35,744 bases of DNA, taken from Ferrimicrobium acidiphilum DSM 19497. GTDB lineage: Bacteria > Actinomycetota > Acidimicrobiia > Acidimicrobiales > Acidimicrobiaceae. The notes under the pieces are model-generated. The model saw only the letters and a program-made list of their open reading frames with translations, did not search any database and was not told where the DNA came from. Position 1 is the first letter of the stretch; the number at the start of each line of letters is the position of its first letter. The translations under genes and the position numbers were made by a program. The stretch is taken from positions 1 to 35,744 of the forward strand of contig NZ_JXUW01000029.1 of NCBI RefSeq assembly GCF_000949255.1, read 5' to 3'. Positions 9,812 through 35,744 of the stretch are shown here, in pieces.

Positions 9812-11662
9812 TCACCCGACTCTAGCGAGTTCGGCAAACAAGCGGTCGGCCAGCTCGGGTGATTCGGCTAGCAATGGCGTCGTTACCATGGCCAGCAGTG
9901 ACTCCTTGTCAGATGGGCGAATGCGAGCAAGCTTGCGAAGATCAGCATCGGAGAGGATGAGGTAGGAGGCTAGCCTCCGTTCTTTTGCAACCGCCACTCG
10001 CCAGCGATCCAGGCGGGTGGCTAGCGATGGGGCACCATGGGAGCGAATGCTCTGGGTAGGGGCGTTCTCTTCTCCTCGACCAAGATGTGCTAGTAGAGAC
10101 GATGGAGCAAGGCTCGGCTTCGACCAGGATATGAGCAGAGAGTCCGTCGCTCGAGTCATCGCAACGTACAAGAGCCGACGTTCTTCGGCAAGCGCATCGA
10201 CGGGGAGTCCACGGCGAGACGGGTAGCTTTTGTCGCCGATACCAACGAGGTGAACGTGGTGCCACTGGAGGCCCTTTGCGCGATGGAAGGTAGTAACACT
10301 GACGGCGTCAACCCCTCTGACCTGGAGACCGCGAAGGAGCTCCTCGAGCGCGAGGTAGTCCGCGATCGGATCCTGTCTTCTTAGTTCTGTAGCTACCTCG
10401 AGCAGTATCCGTTGGTTGGCTGCTCGCTCGGGCGATGTGGAGTTCAACGCCTCCTCGACCATGTCGCAGATCTCGGTGATCTGGAGGCGTTCGGTCTTTG
10501 CCGTTCGCATCAGCGCGATCACCTCAGGGGCGGACGCCAAAGGAGTAAGCCCGAGGATGCTATGGGGGATGTCGAGTCGACGCAACGCCTCCTCAATCGG
10601 CGCGAGTTGACGAATCGTTCGGGCGAGCGTTGCCATCGATGAGTATGGAACGCCGCGGTAGTGCAACTCCGCTATCCGCCGTGCTGCGAGTTGAGCCTCG
10701 GCAGCCACGGAGTCGGTGGCTAGAAGTTCCGGGGCTTGACCTCCTTGCCGATGAGCCTGGACTCGCCCAAGCAGTTGGTGGTCGGCTACTGGGTTGGCCG
10801 CCGCCACTAGTGCTGCAGTGCTGCGATAGTTGGTGGAGAGAGCCACTCTAGTTAGTGTTGGAATCCGGGTAGCGAGGCTGGTCATCAGCGCCGGATCGGA
10901 TCCATTCCATCCATAGATGGACTGATTGGGATCGCCTACCACAGTTAGCCCAGAGAGATCGGTCCCCATCCATTGCTCGATCAGTCGAAGCTGGAGCGGA
11001 TTGACATCCTGGAACTCGTCGATGTAGACCCAACGGGCTTGTAGCCGGAGTGCCTCTCCGACGCCGTCGTTGCGCGCAACTAGCTCGGTGGCGATCCTCA
11101 AAACATCAGTGAGGTCCATCAGCCGCTGTCGTGATTTTGCGCGCTCCAGCGTCGAGCACACCGAGATGAGTTCGTGTGGGTTTGGTATCGAGACTAGGTC
11201 TGGGTTCTCTTGAAGACTGGTCAGATCATGGCCACGGGCTCGCAGACGCTCGATCTCGGCGAACACTACCCGTCTGCGAGCCTCCGAGAGTTTGAATCCG
11301 AGATCGCCAAGGAGACCATTTGAGTCGCCGATGAGACGAGGAACTGGTCGACCAAGCATGGCGGAGCCTTCGCGCACGAGTCCGAGTGCGAGTGAGTGAA
11401 AGGTTCCACACTGTGGAGGTGGGCCATCAAGCAGTCGGTATAGGCGGCGCGAGACCTCCCAGGCGGCGGCGCGAGTGAAGCTGATCGCAACCGATTGGGT
11501 GCCTCGAGTGGTTTGCGTCGCGATCTGGTAGGCGATTCGGTGGGTCAGAACACGAGTCTTGCCAGACCCTGCTGCCGCCACTATTAGAAGTGGTGCTTTG
11601 GCGATCACCGCCTCTCGTTGTTGGCTACTTAGGCCCTCAAGCAGGAGGTCGGCGTTAGCCAT
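9812..11662 (-). CDS. uvrD2: UvrD2-like superfamily 1 DNA helicase with HRDC-like tail
   Basis: 3'-5' DNA translocase/helicase of the UvrD/PcrA group, DNA repair. 616 residues. Motifs in order: Q motif LSSQQREAV (11-19), Walker A AAAGSGKT (29-36), FTRAAAWEV, CGTFHSLAL, IDEFQDVNPLQ (motif II), VVGDPNQSIYGWNGSDP (III), LSTNYRST (IV), VTTFHRAKGLQWHHV (V) and LLYVAMTRATDSL (VI). The C-terminus (about 560-616, ASYLILSDADLRKLA...) resembles an HRDC domain, the mark of UvrD2 rather than UvrD1. The four-cysteine motif that mycobacterial UvrD2 has before the HRDC domain is absent. It starts three bases after the stop of the radical SAM gene, so it is probably the third gene of that transcript. Confidence 0.9.
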   Translation of the reverse strand: MANADLLLEGLSSQQREAVIAKAPLLIVAAAGSGKTRVLTHRIAYQIATQTTRGTQSVAISFTRAAAWEVSRRLYRLLDGPPPQCGTFHSLALGLVREGSAMLGRPVPRLIGDSNGLLGDLGFKLSEARRRVVFAEIERLRARGHDLTSLQENPDLVSIPNPHELISVCSTLERAKSRQRLMDLTDVLRIATELVARNDGVGEALRLQARWVYIDEFQDVNPLQLRLIEQWMGTDLSGLTVVGDPNQSIYGWNGSDPALMTSLATRIPTLTRVALSTNYRSTAALVAAANPVADHQLLGRVQAHRQGGQAPELLATDSVAAEAQLAARRIAELHYRGVPYSSMATLARTIRQLAPIEEALRRLDIPHSILGLTPLASAPEVIALMRTAKTERLQITEICDMVEEALNSTSPERAANQRILLEVATELRRQDPIADYLALEELLRGLQVRGVDAVSVTTFHRAKGLQWHHVHLVGIGDKSYPSRRGLPVDALAEERRLLYVAMTRATDSLLISWSKPSLAPSSLLAHLGRGEENAPTQSIRSHGAPSLATRLDRWRVAVAKERRLASYLILSDADLRKLARIRPSDKESLLAMVTTPLLAESPELADRLFAELARVG

Positions 11663-11665
11663 TGG

Positions 11666-13015
11666 CTAGTGGGATTTCGCCGGGGCCGCGCAACAGAACC
11701 AAGGTTCGCTCATGACGACCGGACTTGGGGCTACGACGCTGGGGTAACGAGAGTCTGGAACTGGCAACCCATTGGCTTCGTAGACGGCAGCTGCGATGTC
11801 GGCAAAAGTCGTGCCAAAGCTCTCATCACCTGCATCGGAGGCGATTCGATAGAGGCGGTCGCGTAGCACCGGTAGCCGATCATCTCGGTAACTCACGGTG
11901 TAGCCCATTACCTCGGCATCATATGGCCCAAAGTCGCGATCATTGATGGAGAGCAGAGAGTTCGTGGGTGTTAGGAGTTCGATCGAGTATTGGATCGGTT
12001 CTACCACCTCGATTGCGTCGGAGTCGATGATGAACTCGACGATGTCTACGAGATCGTGCAGCGTACTCCATGGAGTGAATGGGACAAATGTCGGATGCAT
12101 GCCGATGCCATTGGCGTAGAGCAGGTCACGAGCAAGGGTCACGTCGCCGGCGACGTGACCCTTGTCGAGATGAGAGAGGACGTCATCGTTTAGGCTCTCG
12201 ACCGCTGAGATGATGAAGTTAACGTGGCTAGCGGCCAACTCTGGAATCAGGTCTCGATGTCGGAGAATCTCTGAGATTTTGGTGGTAATATCAAAGGTCA
12301 CCCAGCGTGCCTTCTCCGCTAGCGTCTTGATTATCTTGAGCGAGTGCTTGGGCGCATTTAGGAAGTCAGGATCACCAAAGCTGAGGTGGCTGGCGCCGGC
12401 CTCGATCTGTGCGAGACCATCCGCGATCACCGATTCAGCGTCGTTGATAGCGATTCTGCCGTTCCAGACGGCGGCAACAGGGCAGTGAAGGCAGCGGTGA
12501 CGACAACCAATAGAGGTCTCCAAGTAGCCGGTGACGTGATCGACCGCATTGATTTTGACGCTTCGGTAGCTTTCAAGTGGCATGAGTGCCGAACGATTCA
12601 CACGATAGGCTCGGCGGCTGGTGGCGCTTCTTGTTCCCGGTTGGCCGATGGCCGAAGCCGGCTGTAGGAGAGTAGCTATGTCGGTGGCGCTCGCGCGATC
12701 GAGCCAAACTGCCGGTGGCGGAGTTCGGAGCGACTCCTTAAGGACGTTGGCGTAGAGTCCGACGACTATGAGTTGACGCTCACGCTCATCGTGCTCAAGC
12801 GATGCGAGTAGATCGCGGGCTACCAACGCACCGGTCAGCATCGGCGCCGTTAGTATCACCTGGTCAGCGTGGTTGAGGACATCTAGCGCTTGACTGAAAG
12901 GAACCTTAGACATGTCGAGCACCTGAAGGGATCCATCGCCGAGCTCGGCGGCGAGCTCAGCCGCAAGCTGTGGCTGATGGCCGAGTTCGTAAGTTGAGAT
13001 AAAGAGTGCAGACAT
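11666..13015 (-). CDS. radical SAM enzyme with C-terminal Cys-Cys-Ala-Ala-Pro tail (CUAEP/CCAEP type)
   Basis: Uses S-adenosylmethionine and a 4Fe-4S cluster to start radical chemistry on an unknown substrate. With the ATG at 13015 the protein has 449 residues. Residues about 1-110 form a cobalamin-binding-like or Rossmann-like region (LFISTYELGHQP). The cluster motif is C-x3-C-x2-C (CRHRCLHC, 171-178), followed by SFGDPDFLN and HPTFVPFTPW. The tail EPWFCCAAPAKSH matches what I recall as the CUAEP/CCAEP-tail radical SAM family, in which some members have selenocysteine; here both positions are ordinary cysteines (TGT TGC). A GTG at 13036 would add seven residues and overlap the ATP-grasp gene by eight bases; the ATG gives the family-like N-terminus. 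Substrate unknown. Confidence 0.85.
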   Translation of the reverse strand: MSALFISTYELGHQPQLAAELAAELGDGSLQVLDMSKVPFSQALDVLNHADQVILTAPMLTGALVARDLLASLEHDERERQLIVVGLYANVLKESLRTPPPAVWLDRASATDIATLLQPASAIGQPGTRSATSRRAYRVNRSALMPLESYRSVKINAVDHVTGYLETSIGCRHRCLHCPVAAVWNGRIAINDAESVIADGLAQIEAGASHLSFGDPDFLNAPKHSLKIIKTLAEKARWVTFDITTKISEILRHRDLIPELAASHVNFIISAVESLNDDVLSHLDKGHVAGDVTLARDLLYANGIGMHPTFVPFTPWSTLHDLVDIVEFIIDSDAIEVVEPIQYSIELLTPTNSLLSINDRDFGPYDAEVMGYTVSYRDDRLPVLRDRLYRIASDAGDESFGTTFADIAAAVYEANGLPVPDSRYPSVVAPSPVVMSEPWFCCAAPAKSH

Positions 13016-13028
13016 GTCTGCCAGTCTA

Positions 13029-14243
13029 CTAGCCACCCTCGATCACGATGGTGAGAAGGGCGCTTGCACGCTGCAAGGCACGCAGTGTACCAGCTTGACC
13101 AGGTGCTTCGGCGAAGATGAACCCGAGGTAGCGATCGGTAAGCGGTGGTGGGTATACCATGGTTCCCGTGCTCACGGTTATCTCGACTCCGGTGACCCCT
13201 GGGACCGAACGGGCCTGATCTAGGCCGTTGACTTCGCGAAGGATACCCCTAGCGGGAGTTGGAATCATATAGATCCCAACTGCTCGGTTTCTCTGCTTGA
13301 TCTCGCCTCTGTCCCCGAGGGCACGGGCCAAGATAAGGTCTTCCAGACGTTGACCGTCACCGAACTTGATCGCCGCTGAGCAACGACCGCCAATGGAGCG
13401 GGGAGCGATCTCAAGGATGACCGCTCGTCCCTCAGATAGTCGCAGTTCGGCATGAACAGGTGTGTTGGTAAGACCAAGGGCTCTAGCGCCACGCTCGACA
13501 GCATTGATAAGCTCTCGTCGTGCCTTGGCGGAGACCTTGGCTGGCCCTAGATAGGTCGACTCCCAGAAGTAGGGTCCCTCACCTATATCCGGCTTGGCAA
13601 AGATCATTAGAACCTCGAGTTGATCGCCGTTCAGGATCCCCTCGACAGCGAACTCGGGACCCTCAACGTAGCTCTCTAGCAGCAGGGGAGCAGATGGTTC
13701 CTGGATCTCTCGAAGTGGATCAATATCGTCGATCAAGTTGGCAGCATTCACCCGAATGACGCCGCGAGAAGCGGTCTGGCGAGTCGGCTTTACAATGAAG
13801 CTCCCCCCAAAATTGGCGACGAGTGCATCAATCTCCGTGGCCTTCAGGTTATTGAGATCGTGCAGCGTTGTGACTAGGAACTTCGGTTGGCCGAGTTCAG
13901 CCCTCATCAGCGTGGTTCGTAAAGCCACCTTGTCGACCGAGCGCTCGACAGCCTCGGCTTTACCGATAGTAAGCCCGAGCTGATCGCTCAAGCTGGCCGC
14001 AAGCCGGGTGGAGACCTCGTCAACGCCGATGATCAACGTTGCGCCGAGACCAAAGAGGTAATCAATGAGCCGCTGGATCTCGTCATCCGGCGGCATCATG
14101 CTGCTGACATGTACCGTCTGGTCCCCGAGGGGCAGTTGAGCATTGGTTAGCAGGGTGAGTTGCTGGGCTGCTCGCGCTCCCGCCTGCAAAAAGGCATCTG
14201 CGCGATAGCTTTCAGCTGGCACGACGAGGACGATATGTTGCAT
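13029..14243 (-). CDS. ATP-grasp ligase, partner of the radical SAM enzyme
   Basis: 404 residues, carboxylate-amine/thiol ligase fold. The ATP-binding lysine region is GGSFIVKPTRQTASRGV, then LLLESYVEGPEFAVEG, and the metal-binding end reads HAELRLSEGRAVILEIAPRSIGG, the carnosine-synthase/biotin-carboxylase-like subgroup. The N-terminal 100 residues form a PurK-like pre-ATP-grasp domain. Such enzymes join an acyl phosphate made from ATP to an amine, thiol or peptide. It is first in a minus-strand unit with the radical SAM gene (stop and start within about 13 bases) and uvrD2. The pair suggests synthesis of a small molecule or modified peptide. No precursor peptide or transporter is visible next door. 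Exact substrate unknown. Confidence 0.85.
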   Translation of the reverse strand: MQHIVLVVPAESYRADAFLQAGARAAQQLTLLTNAQLPLGDQTVHVSSMMPPDDEIQRLIDYLFGLGATLIIGVDEVSTRLAASLSDQLGLTIGKAEAVERSVDKVALRTTLMRAELGQPKFLVTTLHDLNNLKATEIDALVANFGGSFIVKPTRQTASRGVIRVNAANLIDDIDPLREIQEPSAPLLLESYVEGPEFAVEGILNGDQLEVLMIFAKPDIGEGPYFWESTYLGPAKVSAKARRELINAVERGARALGLTNTPVHAELRLSEGRAVILEIAPRSIGGRCSAAIKFGDGQRLEDLILARALGDRGEIKQRNRAVGIYMIPTPARGILREVNGLDQARSVPGVTGVEITVSTGTMVYPPPLTDRYLGFIFAEAPGQAGTLRALQRASALLTIVIEGG

Positions 14244-14324: not shown

Positions 14325-14379
14325 AGGGAGGCCGCTTGGTTGTTAGGAGTTCACTTCAACGAAGTGAGGAATGAGAGTT

Positions 14380-14997
14380 ATGAGCGATTTTCGTGTAACC
14401 GATGTGGCGGTAGAGGTAGTCCTTGAGGCGTTGGCTGACGAAGGTCAGACCGATGCGCTGGCGCTTTGGATCGAGGTTGCTGGGAACGATGGAGCCTCCT
14501 TCATGTATGACGTCTATTTCCAGGAGCTTGCACAAGCCGATCCCGATGATCTGCATCTTCACTTTGGCGAGTTGAATGTAGTAATTCCCAAGACCTCGAT
14601 TGCTCAACTCAACGGTGCGACACTCGAGGTTGGTGGCGATGGAGAGCTCGCGATCACCAACCCAAATACACCGACGCCTGAGGCCTCCGATCTGCCTGAC
14701 CTTGGGCCAGAGGCGCTTGCAAATGATCTCGCCTTACGAGTCAACGCCATTCTGGAGGAGCAAGTGAACCCAGCCATCGCAGCACATGGTGGCTATGCAG
14801 AGCTGGTGGGGGTAGTTGATGCCCGCGCTTACGTGCTTATGGGCGGGGGTTGCCAGGGTTGCGGATTGGCGGCGATGACTCTTTCGCAGGGCATAGCGAC
14901 CGCAATTCAAGAGGCTGTGCCTGAGATCGTCGACATAGTCGACGTGACCAACCACGCGGCAGGGAACAATCCGTACTACCAGCCAGCGAAGAAGTAG
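14380..14997 (+). CDS. nfuA: NfuA-like Fe-S cluster carrier
   Basis: Delivers 4Fe-4S clusters to client enzymes. 205 residues in two parts: an N-terminal HesB/A-type-like domain (about 1-95) that has lost its cysteines, as in E. coli NfuA, and a C-terminal NifU domain with MGGGCQGCG, where Cys158 and Cys161 form the C-x2-C cluster site. Residues about 115-205 include NAILEEQVNPAIAAHGG, the typical start of the NifU domain. The ATG at 14380 was chosen over 14371 because GTGAGGA ends at 14370, giving a spacing of nine instead of zero. Divergent from the ATP-grasp gene; a client such as the adjacent radical SAM protein is possible but not shown. Confidence 0.9.
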   Translation: MSDFRVTDVAVEVVLEALADEGQTDALALWIEVAGNDGASFMYDVYFQELAQADPDDLHLHFGELNVVIPKTSIAQLNGATLEVGGDGELAITNPNTPTPEASDLPDLGPEALANDLALRVNAILEEQVNPAIAAHGGYAELVGVVDARAYVLMGGGCQGCGLAAMTLSQGIATAIQEAVPEIVDIVDVTNHAAGNNPYYQPAKK

Positions 14998-34794: not shown

Positions 34795-35342
34795 GGCTCT
34801 ATTGACATTCATGTGGATAAACTCGCCCTTTCATAGGGTAACTTTAAGTCAATCGGTCCACAAGCTAGCATCACCAGGGCCAGGGTAGCCTTGGCGGAGT
34901 GAAACCCATACGAGCGGGCAATGATGGAGCGAACTTTGGTGTTGAGTCCCTCGACCCTCCCATTGGATACCCCAAGTCTGATGGAGGCAAGTATCCCGTC
35001 TCGATGAGTTCGGATGGTCTTTGAGAGTCGGATGAAACTCGATAGTCGTGAGCGTGAGGCTCGCTTGCACCAGTGATCGAGCATCTCATTCACCTCGTCG
35101 ATTTCGAGGTCTCCAGCAAAGATCGCCCGTAGGGACTCCTTCATCTCATAAGCCCGCCATAGGGCTCCCCCTCGTTGTTTGACAGCTAAGAGGGCTAGTC
35201 CTTGACGCTTGGTTAGGGTTCCTGGATTCTTCAACAGTGCCCACCGTGCCCCGGCGAACTTACGGGCAAAGGTAGGAGAGGGAAGCTTTCTCATCTCCCG
35301 CCAGAGATCCTTGCGTACCTCCTCTAGGGCCTCGGTTCCCAA
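34795..35342 (-). mobile_element. ISL3-family insertion sequence, right-hand part
   Basis: Begins with GGCTCTATTGACATTCATGTGG (34795-34816), which looks like the terminal inverted repeat of an ISL3-type element; the element's coding frame ends 34809 inside this repeat region. The inner boundary at 35342 is where a group II intron begins. The left end and the first half of the transposase lie beyond the window. A target duplication cannot be checked. Confidence 0.65.
34809..35342 (-). pseudogene. ISL3-family transposase, C-terminal exon
   Basis: The 3' part of a DDE transposase. LGTEALEEVRKDLWREMR then FAGARWALLKNPGTLTKRQ, YEMKESLRAIF, HWCKRASRSRLSSFIRL and NGRVEGLNTKVRSIIARSYGFHSAKATL (with the last acidic catalytic residue in RVEG). 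In ISL3 proteins this segment directly follows the DPFHVV strand. The open frame continues upstream to 35492, but those 50 codons are translated intron RNA (domains V and VI), not transposase. Without splicing the protein is inactive; with splicing to an exon outside the window it may be whole. Confidence 0.85.
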
Positions 35343-35405
35343 GTAGGGTCGAACCAGAGCGCCCTGCCAACGTTTCCGCTGGTGGGTTTCTCTGGTCCGC
35401 CCTCC

Positions 35406-35439
35406 GAACCGGACTTGCGACTTCCACCGCATCCGGCTC
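35406..35439 (-). ncRNA. group II intron domain V
   Basis: 34 nucleotides beginning GAGCCGGATGCGGTGGAAG and ending CCGGTTC, the catalytic hairpin with the AGC triad (group IIB-type) near its start and the GTGGAAGTCGCA-like tip. It matches the well-known consensus GAGCCGTATGCGATGAAAGT... in form and length. It lies 22 bases after the maturase stop, the normal place. Confidence 0.9.
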
Positions 35440-35461
35440 TCCCCGAACCCATGCCATCTGG

Positions 35462-35744
35462 CTAAGATGCCTTCTCCTCTATCCCCGCCCACGGTGAAGG
35501 GATTGCCGCACCACGATAGCGGTAACGGGTCACTTGGACTGACCTGCAGTCAAAGAGTACTTCACCGTCTTGCTCGGGCATCCAGGCGTTGGCCAGGTAA
35601 TGCCGTCGCAACCACCCCCAGTTCGCACGGCGATATTTCCGCCGTAGCCAGTGCACTACCCTTAGCCAGGTGTACTGGTGTAGGTAGGCGAAGCTATCTT
35701 TGGATACGCCATGTCGGAAGTAGTTTGTCCAGCCCCTCAGAACG
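35462..35744 (-). CDS. ltrA: group II intron reverse transcriptase/maturase, C-terminal end
   Basis: Partial; it runs off the right edge. Reading the minus strand: LRGWTNYFRHGVSKDSFAYL, then HWLRRKYRRANWGWLRRHYL, and the end VTRYRYRGAAIPSPWAGIEEKAS. These are the maturase (domain X, GIIM) signatures; the reverse transcriptase palm with YADD lies outside. The protein binds its intron to help splicing and makes the DNA copy for retrohoming. No HNH endonuclease domain follows before the stop, so the protein is of the endonuclease-lacking type or the nuclease was lost. Confidence 0.88.
   Translation of the reverse strand, partial: VLRGWTNYFRHGVSKDSFAYLHQYTWLRVVHWLRRKYRRANWGWLRRHYLANAWMPEQDGEVLFDCRSVQVTRYRYRGAAIPSPWAGIEEKAS

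Follow-up and report, generated by a model that had tools for sequence, protein, structure and literature searches.

A putative functional unit of an ATP-grasp ligase, a cysteine-tailed radical SAM protein and an Nfu iron-sulfur carrier whose lysine tail appears and disappears with the ligase gene

The CUAEP/CCAEP-tail radical SAM (seleno)proteins (NCBIfam NF040546) form a family whose name states no function, and the named enzyme closest to the protein described here is ArsL (NF040542), the radical SAM enzyme of arsinothricin, for which cleavage of SAM towards the 3-amino-3-carboxypropyl side has been proposed (PMC8552651). L-amino acid ligases (LALs), such as BL00235 (PDB 3vot) and BacD, are ATP-grasp enzymes, while other ATP-grasp enzymes, such as RimK, LysX (acting on LysW) and tubulin tyrosine ligase, modify protein tails. 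Nfu proteins are iron-sulfur cluster carriers; in the LipB/LipA/NfuA lipoyl pathway NfuA renews the cluster of lipoyl synthase, a radical SAM enzyme that works on an octanoyl-lysine. Here we describe a locus of Ferrimicrobium acidiphilum DSM 19497 in which a CUAEP/CCAEP-clade radical SAM gene, a LAL-type ATP-grasp gene and an nfu gene are neighbours. The window analysed is 35,744 nucleotides long (NZ_JXUW01000029.1, positions 1 to 35,744; assembly GCF_000949255.1).

The initial annotation had reported adjacent ATP-grasp and radical SAM genes, the latter encoding a protein with a CCAAP tail, and this observation is confirmed. Both ORFs lie on the minus strand: the ATP-grasp at 13029-14243 (404 aa) and the radical SAM protein at 11666-13036 (456 aa from GTG). 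Since most relatives align from M8, the likely start is the ATG at 13013-13015, which gives the 13-base gap between the genes. The annotation stopped at 14243, but the nfu gene at 14371-14997 on the plus strand, divergent from the ATP-grasp gene and separated from it by 127 nt, belongs to the finding. A scan for promoters found nothing.

The radical SAM protein matches Pfam Radical_SAM and, over its whole length, NF040546 (E 2e-100, 336.7 bits, below the curated cut-off of 500). Its CX3CX2C [4Fe-4S] site (C178, C182 and C185; 12482-12505) is invariant in 50 of 50 aligned rows, four of them ArsL-type, and its end is MSEPWFCCAAPAKSH. The C-terminal tail, SEPWFCCAAP, occupies 11681-11710, with the Cys pair, which is aligned in 50 of 50 rows, at 11690-11695; compared with C[CU]AEP the Cys pair, the A and the P are kept and the E is replaced. 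To determine whether the tail is conserved, we collected distinct non-ArsL sequences with the motif region complete, the window's included, and found that 67 of 67 read E-x-W-[FY]-C-[CU]-[AS]-[EA]-P, which excludes chance. This set was picked out by a pattern for the last five residues, with identical rows removed. Five profile matches failed the pattern: three (L062, L098 and L100; L numbers denote individual loci or sequence rows) run to a locus or contig end, and two (L044 and L045) are weak paralogues from one genome (94 and 78 bits) that lack the tail. The annotation placed selenocysteine (Sec) at the first position of the pair; in fact, in-frame TGA is the second residue in 25 of the 67 sequences and the first in none. 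The window's protein has no Sec. In a tRNA-Sec search all 198 genomes of the class sample matched at E 0.001 because other tRNAs match, so that only strong matches are informative: nine class genomes whose Sec tails we read (G121, G058, G013, G105, G113, G076, G030, G046 and G183; G numbers denote genomes) have best E between 1.2e-11 and 3.2e-16, while the window's genome has 2.8e-7. This fits with, but does not prove, the window's organism not inserting Sec.

In a quick tree the protein groups among the 67 tail-bearing rows, split with support 100 from four ArsL-type rows. The ArsL clade is its sister; 24 invariant columns and the C-terminal Cys pair are shared. However, the protein scores only 179.2 bits (E 1.5e-52) against NF040542, below the curated 450, and ends FCCAAPAKSH, while four of four ArsL-type rows end RCCLKC. 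Fold searches put the predicted structure nearest to AprD4 (Z 23.2, rmsd 4.3, 393 aligned residues) and OxsB (Z 21.6, rmsd 5.0, 407 aligned), with CysS, MgmA, TsrM, RimO and MiaB at Z 20-21; no ArsL structure was among these matches, and this tells the fold only. A sequence search of the PDB gave nothing better than E 0.42. The suggestion that the tail acts as a redox arm remains conjecture, as the model is not confident there (mean pLDDT 61 for the last block).

The ATP-grasp protein carries ATP-grasp_4 (80.6 bits, Pfam cut-off 27) and LAL_C2 (58.5 bits, cut-off 29.4), and its predicted fold is that of solved LALs: the best match is 3vot (Z 37.2, rmsd 3.4, 375 aligned residues, 21-22% identity), with the next row at Z 32.1. 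Unlike BL00235, it is found with an Fe-S carrier and a radical enzyme. The Nfu-type protein has a NifU domain (PF01106, 69.3 bits, cut-off 27) with a CxxC motif (CQGC, 14851-14862) and an end like TDHAxGxNPYY, but scores 91.1 bits against NfuA (TIGR03341), below the curated 269.35. After NPYY it carries a C-terminal tail, QPAKK (14980-14994); a Klebsiella NfuA, in contrast, stops at HSYY.

We next addressed the coupling of the ATP-grasp and radical SAM genes. In the class sample, 73 of 76 genomes with the radical SAM gene (E <= 1e-20) have the ATP-grasp, as compared to 17 of 122 others, although the genes are adjacent in only 33 of the 73. Conservation of the tail and linkage of the ATP-grasp gene had been named beforehand as tests of the initial interpretation, and neither outcome refutes it. 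In one genus, g41, where the two genes lie 66-68 kb apart in the seven genomes that have both on one contig, 15 of 42 genomes have both, none has the radical SAM gene only, two have the ATP-grasp only and 25 have neither. In a phylum sample, counted by hand, the ATP-grasp accompanies the radical SAM gene in 21 of 22 genomes; five of the 22 are also in the class sample, and 28 of 50 matching genomes (about 101 bits or less) were not counted as this family. On named contigs of several phyla the ATP-grasp is adjacent in 15 of 18 and elsewhere in the genome in the other three. On the Nfu tree, however, association of the radical SAM gene with the ATP-grasp is not significant by independent pairs (nine pairs: 4.5 same way, 0 opposite, 4.5 no difference; median p 0.06), nor is that of the radical SAM gene with the Nfu tail (p 0.125). 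The simple ORF caller missed genes in L006, L014, L019, L066 and L071 as well as several nfu genes, which were found by six-frame profile, BLAST or tail searches.

The nfu gene is a third partner. It lies within 500 nt of the ATP-grasp gene in at least 78 of 90 genomes, and Nfu beside an ATP-grasp ends PYYxxxK[KQ] in 54 of 55 sequences read, as compared to 1 of 41 others; the exception, G159, is a 66%-complete assembly. The 41 rows are 35 chosen by hand from 64 rows without ATP-grasp, with their match ends known to us, plus six second Nfu copies from ATP-grasp genomes (L121-L125 and L146), all six of which lack the tail. The ATP-grasp-side rows are those in the stretches retrieved, and four rows missed by an earlier pattern were included; in L057 the Nfu match is in two frames. 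In one genus, ten genes lie in the same order around nfu in G017, G112, G005 and G011; G005 and G011 lack only the ATP-grasp, and their Nfu ends ASH rather than KK. A Gemmatimonadetes genome has nfu (ending AASKK) followed by the ATP-grasp, and 10 of 10 Rhodospirillales loci with nfu beside the pair read NPYYxx[GS]K. There are, however, exceptions. Two Anaeromyxobacter MAGs have both enzymes but no NifU-domain match, and the one Nitrospirales genome has a single NifU match, in a different, Rieske-like protein without this tail, and so Nfu cannot be an obligate substrate everywhere. In Rhodospirillales up to six residues follow the lysine, and in three relatives the last residue is Q, so the C-terminal carboxylate is not the common feature. 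G123 (tail EASAK) and G024 (EPAK, no ATP-grasp found) are partial exceptions. An ORF beside the ATP-grasp in L054, L064, L066, L072 and L073 was first considered as a partner replacing Nfu, but it lies on the opposite strand of nfu in all five loci and is an artefact of the ORF caller.

Could the tail be a neutral clade marker, with the three genes neighbours merely by descent? The counts are inflated by shared ancestry, and the Nfu tree offers only seven well-supported independent pairs for tail and ATP-grasp; of these, on average 5.9 go the same way, 0 the other way and 1.1 do not differ (median p 0.03). Yet on this tree the tail changes at least 12 times and the ATP-grasp state 13 times, concordantly, unlinked genes co-occur in g41, the tail recurs in another phylum and second Nfu copies in the same genome lack it. 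We therefore consider mere inheritance of gene order very unlikely.

The tail follows the ATP-grasp rather than the radical enzyme. In the class, 17 genomes have the ATP-grasp without a detected radical SAM match and three the reverse; since G079 is a weak match (77 bits) and G112 and G120 are 77% and 74% complete, the asymmetry is smaller than 17 to 3. Of the Nfu rows from genomes of the former kind (class and phylum), 17 of 17 keep the tail, among them one from a single-contig genome, G022. This argues against a docking alternative, in which the lysine tail would recruit a dedicated Nfu to the enzyme pair to load or renew the [4Fe-4S] cluster of the radical enzyme, while the two enzymes make an unknown small molecule. 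The tail is short, basic and tolerant of change (KK, KQ, or GK plus more residues), as docking tails may be, and systems without a tailed Nfu exist; however, the partner that the tail follows, the ATP-grasp, has only one invariant cysteine in its 15-row alignment. Docking remains possible, although we hold it only tentatively.

An arsinothricin-like route, in which the radical enzyme would move 3-amino-3-carboxypropyl from SAM to arsenic or another soft element held by the Cys/Sec tail and the ATP-grasp would then couple the amino acid to another, giving a peptide-type antibiotic or a detoxified form, finds little support. In its favour are the kinship to ArsL and the fact that, of four ArsL-type plasmid regions viewed, three (Alicyclobacillus, Priestia and Klebsiella) carry an ATP-grasp of the same broad superfamily, 24-25% identical. 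These score only 69-116 bits with the profile of the present family, as compared to 540-691 for rows of the named contigs (nearly all used to build it) and 469-479 for three genomes not used; the fourth region (Pseudomonas) has no ATP-grasp within 5 kb. ArsL has ars genes around it, while no arsenic gene was found among the five neighbouring proteins scanned in the window. In the class sample, arsM is present in 21 of 76 radical-SAM genomes as compared to 22 of 122 others (p 0.12), acr3 in 11 of 76 as compared to 24 of 122 (counted by hand) and arsS (E <= 1e-20) in 0 of 198; the window's genome has no match to the three (arsM at E <= 1e-40, acr3 at E <= 1e-30). Against our reading, arsM is commoner in genomes with the ATP-grasp (28 of 90 as compared to 15 of 108; p 0.005, not corrected for kinship). 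The ATP-grasp-only genomes argue against a radical-first order. We consider this route unlikely.

Literature searches found papers on arsinothricin with ArsL or ArsM and on 3-amino-3-carboxypropyl transfer by radical SAM enzymes with arsenic (PMC8552651 and PMC12159101 were consulted), and, for radical SAM selenoproteins in arsenic biosynthetic gene clusters, only a paper unrelated by its title. Nothing was found on the CUAEP or CCAEP tail, arsenosugar and ArsS radical SAM cysteines, Nfu with ATP-grasp and radical SAM, arsinothricin with ATP-grasp, or Sec in radical SAM proteins, although only open-licence papers were covered, so that this is no proof of absence.

Taken together, the initial interpretation is partly supported: a family of the proposed name exists, its tail is conserved and the ATP-grasp is coupled to it, but the Sec position was wrong, and the statement that no precursor peptide is visible, which had favoured a metabolite over a RiPP, overlooked Nfu. 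We propose that the three genes form one functional unit, which we regard as very likely, with a nested order: a core of ligase and Nfu, acting through the lysine tail, and the radical enzyme as an add-on acting later. What the analysis shows for the core is co-conservation and coupled gain and loss only; the chemistry, i.e. peptide-type ligation, any covalent change of the Nfu tail and the radical step, is inferred. In the most likely step, the ligase would activate a small carboxylate, in the manner of LALs, and join it to the conserved tail lysine of Nfu, or make its product while Nfu is held by that tail; ligation on Nfu as such is doubtful, as the solved relatives of the ATP-grasp are amino acid ligases and protein-tail-modifying ATP-grasps are a working analogy only. 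The radical enzyme would act after, or on, that product, binding a soft atom or substrate with its Cys-Cys/Cys-Sec tail and, inferred from kinship to ArsL only, probably cleaving SAM towards the 3-amino-3-carboxypropyl side. Nfu may also renew its cluster, as NfuA does for lipoyl synthase. We put the probability of this explanation as a whole at about 0.4. A more speculative, rather unlikely version is that the ATP-grasp acylates the tail lysine and the radical (seleno)enzyme then remodels the attached group in place, as lipoyl synthase does on octanoyl-lysine; this would be a new protein modification and a new cofactor on the Fe-S delivery pathway, present in genomes of about 1 Mb as well as in Ferrimicrobium-type bacteria.

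The CUAEP/CCAEP radical SAM family is common, being found in 76 of 198 sampled genomes of the class, and its name states no chemistry; the finding gives it two genetic partners and an order, as well as one small, easily measured object, the C-terminal peptide of Nfu, where a modification or a docking event can be looked for. To our knowledge no described system connects amino-acid ligation with Fe-S cluster delivery, and literature searches on Nfu with ATP-grasp and radical SAM and on NfuA C-terminal tails showed none; if a ligase marks an Fe-S carrier, it would link the two.

On the minus strand, an ATP-grasp gene (13029-14243) is followed by a radical SAM gene (11666-13036; since most homologues align from its eighth codon, the likely gap between the two is 13 bases). 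Three bases after the stop of the radical SAM gene comes a gene for a UvrD-type helicase with an HRDC domain (9812-11662, minus strand); the same helicase type follows the radical SAM gene in five other loci (L002, L003, L004, L040 and L041). On the plus strand, 127 bases from the ATP-grasp start, lies a gene for a 208-aa Nfu-type Fe-S carrier (14371-14997). Far from this group, we also found a group II intron match on the minus strand (35343-35441; 58.1 bits against a gathering threshold of 40, E 4.6e-9) inside the span of a 227-aa ORF (34809-35492).

The radical SAM protein matches the NCBI profile NF040546 (CUAEP/CCAEP-tail; E 2e-100, 336.7 bits, i.e. below the cut-off of 500) and, more weakly, NF040542, the profile of ArsL (E 1.5e-52). 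In a quick tree of 71 proteins it sits among 67 tail-bearing rows that are split from four ArsL-type rows with support 100. Its nearest rows are L002 (titled Ferrimicrobium sp.), two MAGs titled Actinomycetes bacterium (L003 and L004) and G014, a genome of its own family. Of 67 distinct tails, including that of the protein under study (L001), 37 read CCAEP, 24 CUAEP, five CCAAP and one CUSEP, all within E-x-W-[FY]-C-[CU]-[AS]-[EA]-P. Sec is the second residue of the pair wherever it occurs, and at least nine Sec/Cys changes are needed on the quick tree, although 26 of its 68 inner branches are poorly supported. The 50-row alignment with ArsL has 24 invariant columns, among them the three cluster cysteines and the C-terminal Cys pair. 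The predicted structure (mean pLDDT 86.7) is nearest to AprD4 and OxsB. The domains, sequence and predicted fold of the ATP-grasp are those of L-amino acid ligases. Each of the 90 positive genomes of the class contains exactly one match at E <= 1e-20, so it is a distinct single-copy family there.

To determine whether the two genes are coupled, we scored both in a sample of 198 genomes of the class. At E <= 1e-20, 76 genomes match the radical SAM family and 90 match the ATP-grasp: 73 have both, three have radical SAM only, 17 have ATP-grasp only and 105 have neither (Fisher p 1.8e-33, not corrected for kinship). Of the three radical SAM-only genomes, G196 has only weak paralogues without the tail; of the 17 ATP-grasp-only genomes, G079 is a weak match (77 bits) and G112 and G120 are incomplete assemblies. 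The two genes lie within 1.5 kb in 33 of the 73 genomes, further apart on one contig in 16 and on different contigs in 24. In genus g41 (assemblies of 0.6-1.1 Mb), 15 of 42 genomes have both genes, none has radical SAM only, two have ATP-grasp only (74% and 77% complete) and 25 have neither; seven have both on one contig, 66-68 kb apart. In the phylum sample, 21 of 22 radical SAM genomes have the ATP-grasp (read by hand; five of these genomes are also in the class sample). Of 18 named contigs (Actinomycetota, Nitrospirales, Rhodospirillales, Gemmatimonadetes and Anaeromyxobacter), 15 have the ATP-grasp adjacent, and the genomes of the other three have it elsewhere. A Thermomicrobium megaplasmid carries the radical SAM gene and no ATP-grasp match, in a search that covered the megaplasmid and not the chromosome.

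A DUF169-type protein recurs near the pair in two phyla (L046:5270-5995, and also in loci L005, L007, L054, L055, L057 and L082; the Pfam assignment rests on L046 only). A thiamine diphosphokinase-type gene lies directly downstream of the ATP-grasp where the radical SAM gene is elsewhere or not found (L077:7196-7819, with relatives in L070, L080 and L083). In a genus without a detected radical SAM partner, a TldD-like metalloprotease gene takes the position directly downstream of the ATP-grasp (L069:5161-6621, and its relative in L075). Finally, in a genome of about 1.1 Mb the radical SAM gene lies between a luciferase-like monooxygenase and a flavin reductase gene (L050:5889-8772).

Nfu itself matches 172 of 198 genomes at E <= 1e-10 and is, therefore, not special to this system. 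However, 78 of the 90 ATP-grasp genes have an Nfu within 500 nt; one more lies at 506 nt, one Nfu is on another contig (the ATP-grasp being at a contig end), and for ten no Nfu row was listed. For seven of those ten (G164, G129, G066, G105, G038, G062 and G127) the DNA around the ATP-grasp shows an Nfu with the tail. The matches reach the last residue of the Ferrimicrobium Nfu in 75 of 78 ATP-grasp-adjacent cases, against one of 64 listed rows from genomes without ATP-grasp. Reading the ends shows why: Nfu beside the ATP-grasp ends NP[YF][YF]xxxK[KQ] with few variants, while the others mostly end NP[YF][YF] plus zero to a few other residues. In a selected set of 96 rows, the tail is present in 54 of 55 rows on the ATP-grasp side and in one of 41 others. 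The one positive among the latter, G159, is a 66%-complete assembly of g41, and the one negative among the former, G123, ends EASAK; G024, which has no detected ATP-grasp, ends EPAK and is a further partial exception. On the Nfu tree, which was built without the tail, the ATP-grasp state changes at least 13 times and the tail 12 times. Of seven well-supported independent pairs, on average 5.9 go the same way, none goes the other way and 1.1 do not differ (median p 0.03).

The cleanest case is g41. Ten genes lie in the same order in G017, G112, G005 and G011, and G005 and G011 lack only the ATP-grasp between nfu and the thiamine diphosphokinase-type gene (that neighbour is itself 36-38% identical to the one in G017, and 46% in G112). 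With the ATP-grasp, Nfu ends YFEASKK or YFESSKK; without it, YFASH; the Nfu proteins are 76-82% identical. In the genomes with a second Nfu copy, the one away from the ATP-grasp lacks the tail in six of six cases read. A Gemmatimonadetes genome has nfu ending YFAASKK directly upstream of the ATP-grasp, and ten of ten Rhodospirillales loci with an nfu beside the pair read NPYYxx[GS]K. In the latter order Nfu is longer and looks two-part: in L010:7126-8001, residues 1-183 align with ordinary Nfu, while residues 187-291 hold a NifU domain with CQGC and the tail.

The ATP-grasp without a detected radical SAM match is common (17 genomes of the class, at least three of them doubtful) and the reverse is rare (three genomes, one of them a paralogue), while the tail is kept in 17 of 17 rows of the ATP-grasp-only kind (class and phylum rows). 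The simplest reading is that ATP-grasp and Nfu form the core and that the radical enzyme acts later. This order is inferred from presence and absence, and none of these data shows a chemical reaction. Furthermore, by independent pairs on the Nfu tree the radical SAM gene is not significantly tied to the ATP-grasp (p 0.06) or to the tail (p 0.125). Two Anaeromyxobacter MAGs have both enzymes and no NifU-domain match, and one Nitrospirales genome has both enzymes and only a NifU match in a protein that looks Rieske-like by eye and is without this tail.

Since the radical SAM protein is akin to ArsL, we considered a role in arsenic chemistry. In addition to this kinship, such a role is suggested by ATP-grasp neighbours in three of four ArsL-type plasmid regions viewed and by a weak association of arsM with the ATP-grasp (28 of 90 genomes against 15 of 108, p 0.005, uncorrected). 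The three plasmid ATP-grasp genes (L106:2451-3683, L107:1105-2328 and L108:6715-7779) lie inside arsinothricin-type clusters, with an RCCLKC radical SAM protein, on Alicyclobacillus, Priestia and Klebsiella plasmids, and possibly point to a peptide form of arsinothricin; a search of open-licence papers returned none mentioning both arsinothricin and ATP-grasp. By contrast, arsM tested against the radical SAM gene (p 0.12), acr3 and arsS give no support.

Taken together, the ATP-grasp and radical SAM genes singled out in the initial annotation are a real and conserved pair, whereas the reading placed on them there is only partly supported. The radical SAM family is already named, though unassigned. 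What is new is the system: an ATP-grasp, a radical SAM enzyme and an Nfu whose C-terminal lysine tail comes and goes with the ligase.
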